Assembly: GCA_039908345.1 (NCBI GenBank)
Contig: JAMOBD010000002.1
Span: forward strand, 62,001-126,000
DNA from: Magnetospirillum sp. WYHS-4
Lineage (GTDB): Bacteria; Pseudomonadota; Alphaproteobacteria; Rhodospirillales; GLO-3
Length of the DNA stretch: 64,000 nucleotides
Reading direction: 5' to 3'
Shown: piece after piece, positions 2,593-12,308 of the stretch
Layout: every line of letters begins with the position of its first letter
Numbering within the stretch: position 1 is the first letter of the stretch
Translations under genes and position numbers: made by a program
The notes under the pieces: generated by a model
Database searches by the model: none
What the model saw: only the letters and a program-made list of their open reading frames with translations
What the model was told of the DNA's origin: nothing

Positions 2593-3747
2593 TTATGACA
2601 GGAAGTTCTTAATAAACTCGAAAACCCTCAGGTGGACCAAGTCGTTCCAGGTAGCGAAGATCATCAACAGCAATACCAGAATCAGGCCGAAGCGGAAACC
2701 GTATTCTTGATAGCGGGCGTCCAGCGGCCGGCCACGGACGGCTTCGGCGGCGTAGAACAGGAGATGCCCCCCATCCAATACCGGAATGGGGAACAAATTG
2801 ATCAACCCGAGATTGACCGACAGGGCGGCCATGAAGAATACGAGGCTAACGAATCCGCTTTCCGCCATCTTGCCCGACATCTGGGCGATGCGCAGGGGAC
2901 CGCCCAAATCCTCGGCGTTGCGGGAGCCGCTGACCATGAGGCCGACTTCCTGAAGGATGCGGGTCGCCAAGCCGAAGGATTTCTCCACGGCCATCCAGGA
3001 GGCACTCAGGGGATTATGGCGCTCGTAGACCACCCGCGCGGGATCGGGCAGCACGCCCAACAGGCCGACTTCCCGCGTCCGGCCATCCTCGTCCGCCCTG
3101 ACCGAAGCCTTGGGGACCGCCTGAAGCGTCATCTCGGCCCCGTCGCGCACCAAGCGGAACGACAGGCCTTGGCCGGGATGGGCCGAAACTATGCGCCGCA
3201 AGTCCTCGAAGCGGGGCGTCGGTTCGCCATCGATGGCCGTTATCAAGTCGCCCTTCTGGAACCCGGCCTGTTCGGCCGAGCTACCGGGCTGCACTTGGCC
3301 GACTCCCGCCTGATGATGGGGATTGCCGACCGTCATGAACATGAGGGCCAACACCGCGATGGCGAACAGGAAATTGGCGATCGGCCCCGCGGCGACGATG
3401 GCCGCCCGCTGCCCCAGGCGTTTGTGGTGGAAGGACACGGCCTTCTCGGCGTCGGTCATCGGGGGACGATCGGGGCTTTCCTCGTCGAAATCGTATTCGC
3501 CGAACATCTTGACGTAGCCGCCCAGCGGCACGGCACTGAACTTCCAGCGAGTCCCCAGGCGGTCGTTGAAACCGAACAGCTCCGTCCCGAAGCCGATGGA
3601 GAAGACCTCGACCTTCACCCCGTTGCGCCGGGCAACCCAGAAGTGGCCGAGTTCGTGCACGAAAACCAGCACGCTGAGCGTAACCAGAAACGGCACGCCG
3701 TAGTCCCACAGGTTGCCCAGAAAGCCGGTGATGCTATCCAATCCCAT
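2593..3747 (-). CDS. rseP: RIP metalloprotease RseP (site-2 protease)
   Basis: A 384-residue inner-membrane zinc protease. The first transmembrane helix carries the HELGH zinc motif at residues 31-35, one PDZ domain spans about residues 149-215 (GQVQPGSSAEQAGFQKGDLI), and the second catalytic motif PIPVLDGGH lies near residue 325. Only one PDZ domain is visible, whereas E. coli RseP has two. In the family it performs intramembrane cleavage of anti-sigma factors after an initial periplasmic cut, and removes remnant signal peptides. The position between dxr and bamA is the standard proteobacterial arrangement. Start is ATG with GGAAGGACC-type ribosome binding sequence just upstream. Confidence 0.96.
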   Translation of the reverse strand: MGLDSITGFLGNLWDYGVPFLVTLSVLVFVHELGHFWVARRNGVKVEVFSIGFGTELFGFNDRLGTRWKFSAVPLGGYVKMFGEYDFDEESPDRPPMTDAEKAVSFHHKRLGQRAAIVAAGPIANFLFAIAVLALMFMTVGNPHHQAGVGQVQPGSSAEQAGFQKGDLITAIDGEPTPRFEDLRRIVSAHPGQGLSFRLVRDGAEMTLQAVPKASVRADEDGRTREVGLLGVLPDPARVVYERHNPLSASWMAVEKSFGLATRILQEVGLMVSGSRNAEDLGGPLRIAQMSGKMAESGFVSLVFFMAALSVNLGLINLFPIPVLDGGHLLFYAAEAVRGRPLDARYQEYGFRFGLILVLLLMIFATWNDLVHLRVFEFIKNFLS

Positions 3748-3759
3748 TTCGGGTCCTTC

Positions 3760-4944
3760 CTATGGCCGTCGTTGGCGGCGGTCGATGACATCCTGGGCGA
3801 CGCGGCGCGCCTCGCCATCGACGGCATGGACGTCTTCCAGCGAGTCCAGCCGGTGCGTCGGCATGGCGGCCAGGGTTTCCTCGACCGTCCGCGCGATGTC
3901 CAGGAATCCGATGTTCCGCTTGAGGAAGCGATCGACGGCGACCTCGTTGGCCGCATTCAGTATAGTGGGGGCGGAACCACCGGTCCGCAAGGCCTCGCGG
4001 GCCAGGCGCAGGGCAGGAAACCGTTCCAGGTCGGGGCGCCGGAAGGTCAGGGTCGCGATCTCTTCCAGCTTCAGGCGCGCCGCCGGAGTCTCCATCCGTT
4101 TCGGCCAGGCCAGGGCGTAGGCGATGGGGGTGCGCATGTCCGGCGTCCCCAATTGCGCCAGGACCGACCCGTCCACGTAGTCCACCAGGCTGTGCACCAC
4201 CGACTGGGGGTGAACCAGGATCTCGATGCGGTCCTCGGAAACCGGGAACAGGTGGTAGGCCTCGATCAGCTCCAGGCCCTTGTTCATCATGGTGGCGGAA
4301 TCGACCGAAATCTTGGCCCCCATGTCCCAGTTGGGATGGGCCACCGCCTGTTCCGGCGTCACGGCGGCCATCTCTTCCAGGCCGCGATCGCGAAAGGGGC
4401 CGCCCGAGGCGGTCAGGATGATGCGGGCGATACGTTCCGGTTGATCGCGGTCGAGAACCTGGAAAATGGCGCTATGCTCGGAATCGACCGGCAGCAGGGT
4501 CGCGCCGTGGCGGGCGATCTCGGCGGTCATCACCGCGCCGGCGGAGACCAGCACCTCTTTATTGGCCAAGCCGACGATAGCGCCCCGCCGCACCGCAGCC
4601 AGGGTGGGGTCCAGCCCGGCCACGCCGACGATGGAGGCCATCACCCAGTCGGCCGGGCGCGCCGCGGCGTCCACCACGGCCTGGGGCCCGGCGGCGCCCT
4701 CGATCCCCGAACCGTCGAGTGCCGCCTTCAATTCGCCATAGCGCGCCGGATCGGCCACCACGGCCAGGCGGGCCTTCAGTGTTCGCGCCTGTTCGGCAAG
4801 CAGTGCCACATTGCGGTTGGCCGTCAGGGCCTCCACCTGAAATGAATCGGGATTGCGCTTCAGCAGGTCCACCGTGCTGGTGCCGATGGAACCCGTCGAC
4901 CCGAGCACGGTGACGCGCCGGGGCTGGGAATGGATCATGACCAT
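3760..4944 (-). CDS. dxr: 1-deoxy-D-xylulose 5-phosphate reductoisomerase
   Basis: A 394-residue cytosolic enzyme that converts DXP to 2-C-methyl-D-erythritol 4-phosphate with NADPH, the second step of the MEP isoprenoid pathway. The N-terminal NADPH-binding motif [13 protein letters not shown], the metal/substrate motifs SEHSAIFQ and [15 protein letters not shown] are all present. I placed the start at the ATG at 4944, which has AAGG seven bases upstream; a second ATG at 4938 forms an ATGA overlap with the cdsA stop and is the alternative (MIHSQPRR). An open frame continues further upstream inside cdsA but is just the opposite reading of that gene. The dxs gene of the same pathway is also in this window (25451). 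Confidence 0.96.
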
Positions 4945-5633
4945 GGCAGCACCTTGCCTCCGCCGGCCACCCGGATCAAGGCCATTGCCAAGGCGGCGGC
5001 CAAGAGGCCGTCCACCCGGTCGAGCAGCCCCCCATGGCCTGGAATGATATTGCTGGAGTCCTTTACCCCGAAACGTCGCTTGACCCAGGATTCGAACAAG
5101 TCGCCGCCCTGCGAAAGCCCCCCCACCAGGGCCCCGGCCAGGGCCGGAGATGCCAAGCCCCCCGCAGCCTCGGTCCCGCCCGCGACGACGACGGCGGCGC
5201 CGGCACCGCCCGCGCAGGCCATCCCGCCCAACAGACCGGCCCAGGTTTTCTTGGGGCTGATGGCGGACGCCAGCTTTGGGCCCCCAATCAGGCGGCCGAA
5301 GGCGTAAGCCCCGGTATCGGTGGCCCAGACGACAGCGAGAAGCCAGAGAATGGCCAAGGCCCCGGCTTCGGCATCGGCGCGCAGCCAGATCAGGGCGGCA
5401 CAGGGCAGGACCACGTAGGCGACTCCCCCCGCCAGCCAAACCACACGGGCCGGCGCCGGCCTGACCAAACGCTGCCATTCCCAGAGCATGACGGCGGCGG
5501 AAACGACCACCAGTATCTCGAAGTAGGGGCGCCCGAACCAGACCGCCGCCAGTACTGGCGGGGCCAGCGCCAGAGCCGACAGAATACGGACCGTAAGATT
5601 GCCAAGGCGCGGCTCACCCGTTGGTTCGACCAT
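4935..5633 (-). CDS. cdsA: Phosphatidate cytidylyltransferase (CDP-diglyceride synthase)
   Basis: Integral membrane enzyme that makes CDP-diacylglycerol from phosphatidic acid and CTP for phospholipid synthesis. The C-terminal CDS signature ([21 protein letters not shown]... [13 protein letters not shown]) is intact, with several hydrophobic helices before it. With the start at ATG 5633 the product is 232 residues, short for the family (about 260-290), and the start lies 20 bases inside uppS. Translation in frame continues open upstream to 5888, but that stretch reads like the alternative frame of uppS, so I keep the short form. Downstream dxr starts within the last bases of cdsA, implying translational coupling. 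Confidence 0.93.
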
Positions 5634-8727: not shown

Positions 8728-9525
<798 letters not shown>

Positions 9526-9654
9526 GGTCGGTTTCCTTTTCCGGTTGGTCCTCCGCGGGCCACGTCCGACCCCACCGTGGAGTTGGACACCGGAGCGACG
9601 CATGGGGATGTCTCCCCCACCCGCCGCACGCCCGCGTGCGTGATGAAGGCCGTG
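9526..9654 (-). ncRNA. Probable structured 5' leader of rpsB-tsf
   Basis: About 130 bases separate the inferred rpsB promoter from the rpsB start. Read on the minus strand, the leader contains a perfect hairpin GCACGC-GG-GCGTGC (9626-9639) and a second one built from GGGGGAGACATCCCC (9603-9617). Autoregulatory S2-binding leaders are established for rpsB in other bacteria, but I cannot match a specific known motif, so the role here is inferred. Confidence 0.4.
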
Positions 9655-9683
9655 TACATAGTGGAGACGGACGGCGATTGCAA
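9655..9683 (-). promoter_or_regulatory. Sigma-70-type promoter of rpsB operon
   Basis: On the minus strand TTGCAA (9683-9678) is followed after exactly 17 bases by TATGTA (9660-9655), a good match to -35 and -10 boxes. It would start transcription about 125 bases before rpsB. No other promoter of comparable quality lies between rpsB and the divergent gene at 9726. Confidence 0.6.
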
Positions 9684-9725
9684 GCCCCGATGGTCGAGGC
9701 TTGAAACCGGGCGGCCGATGCAAAC

Positions 9726-10253
9726 ATGATGAGGAACGCCAGAAACCGGACGCCCGCCATGAACGCTCCCCGCCGCCGCTTCTACACCATCTCCCCCGAT
9801 TACGTCACCGCCGCCGGTTACGAGAACCTGGCGGGCGCCGAAGCGGCCGCCGTGGCCTTCGGGAATGGCGCCCATGTGGTGGACACCCTGTCCACCACCT
9901 ACACCCCGGCCATCTACCGGGTGGAGGAAGGGGAACTCCGCCTGCAGGGCCAAGGCTCGTTCGACCATCGCCACGGCCTGGGAGCCAACCTGATCGAAGC
10001 CGCCCGCAAGCGCATCCCGCCTTTGGTCCGTGCGCTCCTGGCCAAGGGCGCCGATCCCGATTCCGCCGACCATGACGGCGGCACGGCGCTCCATTGGGCG
10101 GTGGCGGGCGGCAGTTTCGACGTGGTGCGCCTCCTGGTCGAAGCCGGGGCCGATCCCCGGCGCACCGACTCCGACGGCACCACACCGCTGGCCCTGGCCC
10201 GGAGCAAGCACCGGGATACCATCGCGGAGTTCCTGGAACAGATAAGCGGTTAG
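9726..10253 (+). CDS. Ankyrin-repeat protein
   Basis: A product of up to 175 residues. The C-terminal half holds two to three ankyrin repeats (from about residue 95: [60 protein letters not shown]), which usually mediate protein-protein contact. The N-terminal ~85 residues ([18 protein letters not shown]...) are not a repeat and I do not recognise them. There is no signal peptide, so it is probably cytoplasmic. The start is uncertain: ATG 9726 or ATG 9759 (MNAPRRRF). It is divergent from rpsB and 58 bases upstream of the ATPase gene on the same strand, so a link to that module is possible but unproven. Confidence 0.75.
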
Positions 10254-10311
10254 CGGAGAGTTCCGCGAAAGCGACATTGCCGGTCGCCGTCTTCGCAGGT
10301 AATCTGGCGAC

Positions 10312-11649
10312 ATGCTGACTCGGATCGAAATCGATGGCTTTAAGACTTTCGAGAATTTTGCTCTCGACCTGAAACCCTTTGCCGCCATCGTCGGTCCCAA
10401 TGCTAGCGGCAAGTCCAACCTGTTCGATGCCATTCGGTTCCTTTCGCTTCTGGCCAGACATGACGTAAGGACCGCCATGCAGCAGCTTCGCGGGGAACCC
10501 GAGGAGTTGTTCCGGCGTACCGAGGCCAGCCGGGCTTCGCGTATGAGGTTCGCGGTGCAGATCCTGCTGGACGCCGAAGGCACCGATTCCTTTGGCAGCC
10601 AGTTCGAGATCAAGGCCCAGAGGCTGCATTACGAGGTGGAGATTACCATCAAGCACGGGAGCAAGGGCCAACCGCGAGGCATTTTCGTGACGGGGGAAGA
10701 ATGCCGCGCCATCCCGCGCAAGGAGGAAAAGGTTACTTTCCCCAGCATCAAGTATCTGGCCCCGACTTCCCGGCCCTTTCTTCTCACAAAAAAGGAAAAA
10801 GGCCAGACGTTGGCCTTCGAAATCCGCCAGGATGGGGCGACCAAACGTGGGCGGCCGGTGACGCTGCCGGCAGCGGAGGCTTCTCGGACGGCGTTATCGA
10901 CCATCTCCACGGCCGAGTTTCCGCACCTTTACGCGCTGAAGGACCTTTTCGTTTCCACCCAGTTCCTGGAAATCAATCCCCAAGCCGCACGGCGATCGAG
11001 CGACCGCTTCGAAAGCCGGGACCTGCGGCCGGATGCCTCCAACCTGTCGGCGGTTCTCGCCCGCCTCAAGGAGATCACGGCCGCCGACGACCGCCCGGAA
11101 GGCATCATCGCGGATATTTCGGCCGACTTGGCCTCGCTGGTGCCGTCGGTTCGGTCGGTAAAGGTCTTCGACGACGAGGATACGAAGGAATATTCGTTCG
11201 GCGTAGCCATGTCGGAACAGCTGCAATTCAGTTCGCGCGTCATCTCGGATGGCACCCTCAGGCTCCTGGCGCTGCTTGCCGTGCTGGACGATCCGAACCG
11301 CAAAGGAATACTCTGTTTCGAGGAGCCGGAAAACGGCGTCCACGAGGGCCGCATCCCCATGCTTGTGGAGTTTCTCCGCAAGGCGGTGTCCCGTCCGGAA
11401 GCCATCGGCACCGACCGTCTGTTCCAAGTCCTGGTCAATACCCATTCCCCGGCGGTGATGGCTGCGTTGCAAGACGAGGAAATCGTTGCCGCCGATTCGG
11501 TCAGCCATATCGATCCGAAAAGCCGGACCAAGGCGGTCAAGACCAGAATGCGGACTGGCGTCAAGACCGAACTCGACCTCAATCCCGAAACCGACCTGAC
11601 CCGGGGCGAAGTCGCCGCACTGCTCAAGCGCCAGAGCGGGGAGGCCTGA
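10312..11649 (+). CDS. AAA_21-type (OLD/RloA-like) ATPase
   Basis: A 445-residue SMC/ABC-like ATPase. Walker A is GPNASGKSN near residue 29, the signature region is SDGTLRLLALLAVL, Walker B is ILCFEEPENGVH, and the switch histidine is in VNTHSPAVM. This arrangement is typical of AAA_21 ATPases that partner nucleases in OLD-, RloAB- and PARIS-like defence systems. It has no TOPRIM domain of its own; its stop codon shares a base with the start of the next gene, which encodes one, so the two likely act as a complex. Membrane segments are absent. Its precise role is inferred from family and context; a housekeeping role in DNA metabolism cannot be excluded. Confidence 0.85.
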   Translation: MLTRIEIDGFKTFENFALDLKPFAAIVGPNASGKSNLFDAIRFLSLLARHDVRTAMQQLRGEPEELFRRTEASRASRMRFAVQILLDAEGTDSFGSQFEIKAQRLHYEVEITIKHGSKGQPRGIFVTGEECRAIPRKEEKVTFPSIKYLAPTSRPFLLTKKEKGQTLAFEIRQDGATKRGRPVTLPAAEASRTALSTISTAEFPHLYALKDLFVSTQFLEINPQAARRSSDRFESRDLRPDASNLSAVLARLKEITAADDRPEGIIADISADLASLVPSVRSVKVFDDEDTKEYSFGVAMSEQLQFSSRVISDGTLRLLALLAVLDDPNRKGILCFEEPENGVHEGRIPMLVEFLRKAVSRPEAIGTDRLFQVLVNTHSPAVMAALQDEEIVAADSVSHIDPKSRTKAVKTRMRTGVKTELDLNPETDLTRGEVAALLKRQSGEA

Positions 11650-12308
11650 TGCATCTGGCGTGGGCAGCCTACTACGAAGGCGGCAGCGACCGAGCGTATT
11701 TCGACGTCCTTCTGCCGCGGATCATGGAAGAGATCACCCTGTCCGACGGACTGCGCCAAGTCAGCATTCCGAACGCGGCGGCCGTGCATCTGGGCCTGAA
11801 GAACCGCGAAGTCGCAGCGGTTGCCGCCGAGGCCTGCGCCAATGCCGAGGCCTTCCACCTGCTGTTCATCCACGCGGACTCGGGGGGACGCGCGCAATCG
11901 TCCTCCCTGGACAGCCGGGGAAAAGCCTATTGCGCCGCCGTCGAAGCGCGATGCTCATTGAGATCGGCCCGCTGCATCGTCATGGAACCGCGCCACGAAA
12001 CGGAAGCCTGGGTCATGGCCGATCCCGATGCCGTCCTGGGGGCGCTCGGTTTCCGGGGCGGCCGGCAAGCCCTGGCCCTGCCGGCTGATGCCGACGAAGC
12101 GGAACGCCTTGTCGATCCCAAGGCGACTTTGAAAAATGCCGTAAACGCGGTTCGGAACCGCCGCGCCTGTCGCGGAGATGCAGACCTGTTCACCGCCATC
12201 GCCCAGAGACAAGCCATCGATCGCCTTCGCGGGGCGGCGTCTTTTCGATCGTTCGAAGGCGCGTTGCGGGGCGGATTGGCGGATCTCGGCTGTATTGCCC
12301 CCTCCTAA
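11649..12308 (+). CDS. TOPRIM/DUF4276-like protein, partner of the ATPase
   Basis: A 219-residue protein beginning AAYYEGGSDRAYFDVLLPRI, which resembles the acidic first motif of TOPRIM/DUF4276 proteins (E-G-x-x-D/E). A second acidic motif is in LLFIHADSGG, and MEPRHETEAWVMADPDAV matches the ExEAWxxAD signature typical of DUF4276. TOPRIM folds bind metal and cleave or join nucleic acid; DUF4276 genes commonly follow AAA ATPases. The ATG overlaps the ATPase stop by one base, so translation is coupled. Its 3' end overlaps the convergent exonuclease gene by four bases. The family call rests on motifs read by eye; nuclease activity is not shown. Confidence 0.7.
   Translation: MHLAWAAYYEGGSDRAYFDVLLPRIMEEITLSDGLRQVSIPNAAAVHLGLKNREVAAVAAEACANAEAFHLLFIHADSGGRAQSSSLDSRGKAYCAAVEARCSLRSARCIVMEPRHETEAWVMADPDAVLGALGFRGGRQALALPADADEAERLVDPKATLKNAVNAVRNRRACRGDADLFTAIAQRQAIDRLRGAASFRSFEGALRGGLADLGCIAPS

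Follow-up and report, generated by a model that had tools for sequence, protein, structure and literature searches.

A solitary HEC-01 gene pair between core genes of Magnetospirillum sp. WYHS-4, a candidate anti-phage system of an ATPase and a TOPRIM-like protein

The window analysed here, a 64,000-nucleotide stretch from the draft genome (3.65 Mb) of Magnetospirillum sp. WYHS-4, carries two overlapping genes that encode an OLD/SMC-type ATPase and a small TOPRIM-like protein. The pair is probably a solitary HEC-01 candidate anti-phage system, in which the ATPase would act as a sensor controlling a TOPRIM nuclease. Judged from its profile matches, it is a member of HEC-01, a candidate defence system that is already catalogued and poorly studied. 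The acronym HEC abbreviates Hma-embedded candidate (PMC12111858, PMC12988326). Activity has been reported for several HEC systems, among them HEC-04, an ATPase–TOPRIM fusion for which defence against T4 and T5 has been described (PMC12111858). A search of one literature collection found neither a functional study nor a published phage assay of HEC-01. The gene pairing, the family membership by profile, the fold predicted for the partner and its invariant acidic residues are shown here, together with the co-inheritance and accessory distribution of the pair and the place of sister pairs in restriction operons. A defence function, which would involve sensing, release and nuclease activity, is inferred.

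Organization of the gene pair

The features of the locus, in window coordinates, are as follows.

10312–11649, + strand: ATPase gene, HEC-01A, OLD/SMC-type; 445 aa, stop codon TGA at 11647–11649; presumed sensor/regulator
11649–12308, + strand: partner gene, HEC-01B, TOPRIM-like (DUF4276-like); 219 aa, start codon ATG at 11649–11651; presumed nuclease effector
11647–11651, + strand: TGATG stop/start junction, the one-base overlap of the ATPase and partner genes, from the sequence
12305–12308, no strand assigned: convergent 4-nt overlap between the partner stop codon and the end of a PolB-type exonuclease gene, from the sequence and ORF coordinates

The one-base overlap of the two genes, claimed in the earlier note, is exact in its coordinates. 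A GGGGAGG sequence just 5′ of the TGATG junction is a plausible ribosome-binding site for the partner gene, and the overlap itself is likely to couple the translation of the ATPase and its partner. Both reading frames are intact and keep all the invariant residues described below. The GC content of the pair is 61–65%, with no clear departure from that of the surroundings. Since the same arrangement of ATPase and partner is repeated in at least 65 other loci, it is not a chance juxtaposition.

The ATPase

The ATPase matches the HEC-01A model of PADLOC (PDLC04184) with 518.5 bits, its residues 1–443 aligning with positions 1–462 of the 464 in the model. It also matches Pfam AAA_21 with 98 bits and contains a Walker A motif (GPNASGKSN), a signature motif (SDGTLR), a Walker B motif (LCFEEPEN) and an H-loop (NTHSP). 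The core residues of these four motifs are invariant in an alignment of 62 homologues, in agreement with the earlier identification of an AAA_21 ATPase with intact Walker A and B motifs. The N-terminal part of the protein is similar to RecF and SMC. The AlphaFold2 model has a pLDDT of 92.2, and its matches in the PDB are PtuA, the retron-IA ATPase and SMC heads.

The TOPRIM-like partner

The partner matches the HEC-01B model of PADLOC (PDLC04209) with 269.2 bits, residues 2–217 aligning with positions 3–218 of the 219 in the model. Its match to DUF4276 (PF14103; residues 10–206 against positions 2–191 of 192) scores 22.4 bits, below the curated cut-off of 30.2, and it is termed no more than DUF4276-like. 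The acidic and other motif residues are Glu-10 and Asp-14 in EGGSD, His-75 and Asp-77 in HADSGG, and Glu-117, Glu-119, Trp-121 and Asp-125 in ETEAWVMAD. In 64 aligned partners, Glu-10, Gly-11, Asp-14, His-75, Asp-77, Pro-114, Glu-119, Trp-121, Asp-125, Pro-157 and Lys-158 are invariant, and Glu-117, Glu-152 and Asp-156 are nearly so. Residues of a metal-site type are among the invariant ones.

The AlphaFold2 model of the partner (pLDDT 94.5) consists of alternating strands and helices, with strands at residues 5–8, 46–48, 71–75 and 109–112. In this model Glu-10 and Asp-14 directly follow strand 1 and the His-75-x-Asp-77 motif lies at the end of strand 3, which is the TOPRIM order. The sole high-probability match in the PDB is the C-terminal TOPRIM region of an OLD nuclease (6nk8, probability 0.98), a match of modest significance (E-value 0.02; TM-scores 0.45 and 0.48). 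Neither PDB sequences, searched with a profile of the partner, nor a viral structure library gave a convincing match. Motif II of TOPRIM enzymes is usually DxD; it is HxD in all 64 aligned partners, which thus depart from the canonical form. Because of this replacement, catalysis by the partner cannot be assumed, and the protein is named TOPRIM-like, TOPRIM being valid at the level of the fold only. The previous description of the partner as a TOPRIM/DUF4276 protein therefore stands for the cited motifs and, in the predicted structure, for a TOPRIM-like fold, but not for DUF4276 membership or a canonical motif II.

Assignment to HEC-01 and comparison with known systems

An A-type ATPase, a B-type partner and the adjacency of their genes, all features of HEC-01, are found in the window. 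The assignment to HEC-01 is made because the A and B models match the two proteins over their full length and far above any other defence model. For the ATPase, the PADLOC scores are 518 bits for HEC-01A against 102 for AriA and 88 for MAD3. The candidate-defence reading put forward earlier thus gains from the finding that both proteins match HEC-01 models best. The window pair shares with HEC-01, as catalogued by PADLOC, the adjacent, full-length A and B genes, an arrangement common to at least 65 other loci, but differs in being solitary among housekeeping genes, outside an Hma or other defence operon.

In PARIS, AriB is a TOPRIM tRNase of the two-metal type, freed by the AriA ATPase sensor and inactivated by the E26A substitution (PMC12409363). 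As in PARIS, the window has a separate ABC ATPase gene, whose product matches AriA (102 bits), and a gene for a small TOPRIM-fold protein. However, the AriA score is far below that of HEC-01A, motif II is HxD, and the partner has no AriB or DUF4435 match, which rules out PARIS membership. Resemblance to MADS lies in an ATPase with MAD3 similarity over most of its length and a small partner with weak MAD4 similarity, but the NCBIfam scores (145.4 bits for MAD3, cut-off 420; 21.7 for MAD4, cut-off 160) are both below the curated cut-offs. Other MADS genes are absent nearby, the neighbours being an ankyrin gene, rpsB and the exonuclease gene, and MADS membership is ruled out. OLD and Gabija GajA likewise combine an SMC/OLD-like ATPase with a TOPRIM fold (the 6nk8 match), but the window has them on two separate ORFs and not on one chain, and lacks the helicase GajB; membership is excluded by this architecture. 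HEC-04/IbfA belongs to the same candidate series and also joins an ABC ATPase to a TOPRIM domain, but HEC-04 is one fused protein whereas the window pair is two proteins. RloAB membership is rejected in that no RloB family appears among the Pfam matches at E-values up to 1. Membership of OLD, RloAB, Gabija or PARIS, the families named in the earlier note, is not supported: the partner matches neither AriB nor DUF4435/RloB and is not fused to the ATPase.

Homologous loci and co-inheritance

Homologues were collected by searching GTDB genomes with a two-sequence alignment, the window ATPase with that of Shinella, and the best 80 of 408 related stretches were kept. A scan of genome contigs with the partner as a single sequence gave no match. 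A full-length partner lies directly 3′ of the ATPase gene in at least 64 of these best 80 and at the Shinella locus, and these pairs span the Alphaproteobacteria, other Proteobacteria, the Cyanobacteria and further phyla. The ATPase and partner genes overlap by 1 or 4 nt in 33 of the 34 close-clade relatives having a partner. Several of the remaining stretches among the best 80 have broken or shortened partners, some stretches are cut off by a contig end, and three (L124, L136 and L144) have an ATPase with no recognisable partner. The closest homologue among the best 80 of 408 is from Caulobacter, with 67% identity in the ATPase and 56% in the partner.

In at least seven loci (L087, L112, L118, L123, L127, L148 and L152), a seemingly intact ATPase gene is followed by a frameshifted, truncated or remnant partner gene, a count subject to bias, since the homologues were sought with the ATPase.

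The divergence of the ATPase correlates with that of the partner (Mantel r = 0.92, reached in 0 of 2000 permutations; 0.89 and 0.80 within two clades). This fits co-inheritance of the two genes and does not separate co-inheritance from species history. A search of viral contigs and phage records found no relatives of the pair, so these sets give no sign of phage carriage.

Distribution among relatives and insertion site

The pair is absent from all 119 relatives searched (one genome per species, in a set without a second species of the genus of the window). A weak match in one of them (G007, L011) was spurious, being a coiled-coil SMC-like protein. Among 384 other genomes of the class, one has a distant pair, as a weak match (L013). 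The pair is thus rare and patchy.

The window pair is flanked by the rpsB region and the PolB-type exonuclease gene. In most relatives having the exonuclease, dnaX–exo–ybaB–recR are kept together, and at window positions 9700–12308 this dnaX–exo adjacency is broken exactly at the pair. The dnaX gene of the window genome is on another contig (C96, L157), beside an rpsI-like gene, and the side of exo that it would occupy holds instead the rpsB block, the ankyrin gene and the pair. The pair is absent from the relatives that keep the exonuclease. These flanks are as the earlier note describes them, and the accessory status that it proposed is supported by the absence of the pair from the 119 relatives. 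No convincing flanking repeats or att-like sites were found at the borders of the window pair.

The ankyrin gene just upstream, formerly considered a possible third component, is dismissed as a part of the system: it has no homologue at 81 other pair loci, and it is present in relatives that lack the pair.

Elsewhere, thrS lies just downstream of the pair in Shinella (L014, 8001–8880) and in a Rhizobiales genome (L087, 1640–2407). The region upstream of thrS is a possible shared insertion site of these two pairs.

Genomic link to defence

The window locus is not a defence island, and the pair stands alone among housekeeping genes. The neighbours of close-clade pairs are diverse housekeeping genes, with no more than scattered defence matches among 101 neighbour genes. 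In a sister clade, five pairs (L128, L138, L146, L150 and L151) lie within type I restriction-modification operons, adjoining hsdS or hsdM. The gene order at L128 is REase_I–Specificity_I–ATPase–TOPRIM–MTase_I, with overlaps of 4 to 7 nt at the ends of the pair. This embedding, which comes from the sister clade, is the strongest genomic evidence of a role in defence.

Further pairs in the same genome

Besides the window pair, the same genome unexpectedly holds a second and a third HEC-01 pair, as well as a fourth pair that is related to them.

Contig C81 (L073), 9430–11186: second HEC-01 pair, between pyrG and kdsA
Contig C15 (L074), about 3600–5347: third HEC-01 pair, directly after leuC
Contig C47 (L075), 390–2217: PDC-M07-like ATPase with a partner of 186 aa, between dapD and dapE

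All four pairs, including that of the window, break gene adjacencies that are conserved in relatives. The pyrG and kdsA genes are adjacent in all seven relatives in which both are readable, leuD directly follows leuC in the four relatives read, and dapD and dapE are adjacent in six of six. The partner stop codon of the C81 pair overlaps the kdsA start. The 186-aa partner on C47 has no PADLOC match, and the PDC-M07-like ATPase is probably frameshifted near its C-terminus, by gene decay or an assembly error. At the pyrG/kdsA, leuC/leuD and dapD/dapE junctions the pairs share the direction of the flanking genes; the window junction is exo/dnaX. Some of the four pairs may be expressed from housekeeping operons. 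Tentatively, HEC-01 and PDC-M07 pairs could be dispersed solitary defence cassettes that enter core-gene junctions without detectable mobile-element genes, with an HxD TOPRIM-variant nuclease as the partner.

Proposed mechanism and alternatives

The mechanism of the pair, by analogy, probably resembles that of PARIS, the ATPase sensing infection and the TOPRIM nuclease acting on it. The ATPase would assemble in an ATP-dependent, SMC/OLD-type manner, keep the small TOPRIM protein inactive and respond to a signal caused by the phage. On this signal the TOPRIM protein would be freed or activated as a metal-dependent nuclease, which may then halt infection through cleavage of host RNA (a tRNA in the case of PARIS) or of invader nucleic acid. 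It is possible, although rather doubtful, that the ATPase instead brings the TOPRIM protein to phage DNA for a direct nick or cut without cell suicide, as in an OLD- or Gabija-like system. The partner has a single high-probability match in the PDB, the C-terminus of an OLD DNA nuclease; the ATPase resembles SMC/OLD heads, and the sister pairs lie inside DNA restriction operons. However, the two functions are on two proteins as in PARIS, whose TOPRIM protein cuts tRNA, and the pair lacks the helicase partner of Gabija.

The solitary occurrence of the cassettes in unrelated core junctions also raises the idea of a selfish, toxin-antitoxin-like addiction module that harms cells losing the pair, phage defence being incidental. 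At least seven loci with an intact ATPase and a broken partner are as expected of a toxic partner, with the bias of an ATPase query, but an ATPase antitoxin lacks direct support, and the restriction-modification operons of the sister pairs and the HEC-01 assignment favour defence, making addiction unlikely. A module for DNA repair or chromosome maintenance would suit the RecF/SMC-like N-terminus of the ATPase and the position of the window pair, which has rpsB on one side and a predicted exonuclease gene on the other. It is nevertheless very unlikely in view of the rare and patchy distribution (one weak match in the 384 other genomes of the class), the absence of the pair from exonuclease-keeping relatives and the restriction-modification operons elsewhere. 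Broken partners are frequent in other species, but the intact frames and complete set of invariant residues in the window make it scarcely probable that this strain carries a decayed or inactive pair.

Significance of the pair

The window pair is a real, intact and accessory HEC-01 pair, for which a PARIS-like mechanism is plausible by analogy. The invariant residues, the fold model and co-inheritance make the hypothesis of an HEC-01 nuclease testable by a set of two or three point mutations. As the four pairs dispersed over one genome show, defence-like modules can occur singly between core genes, where they are missed by island-based searches.
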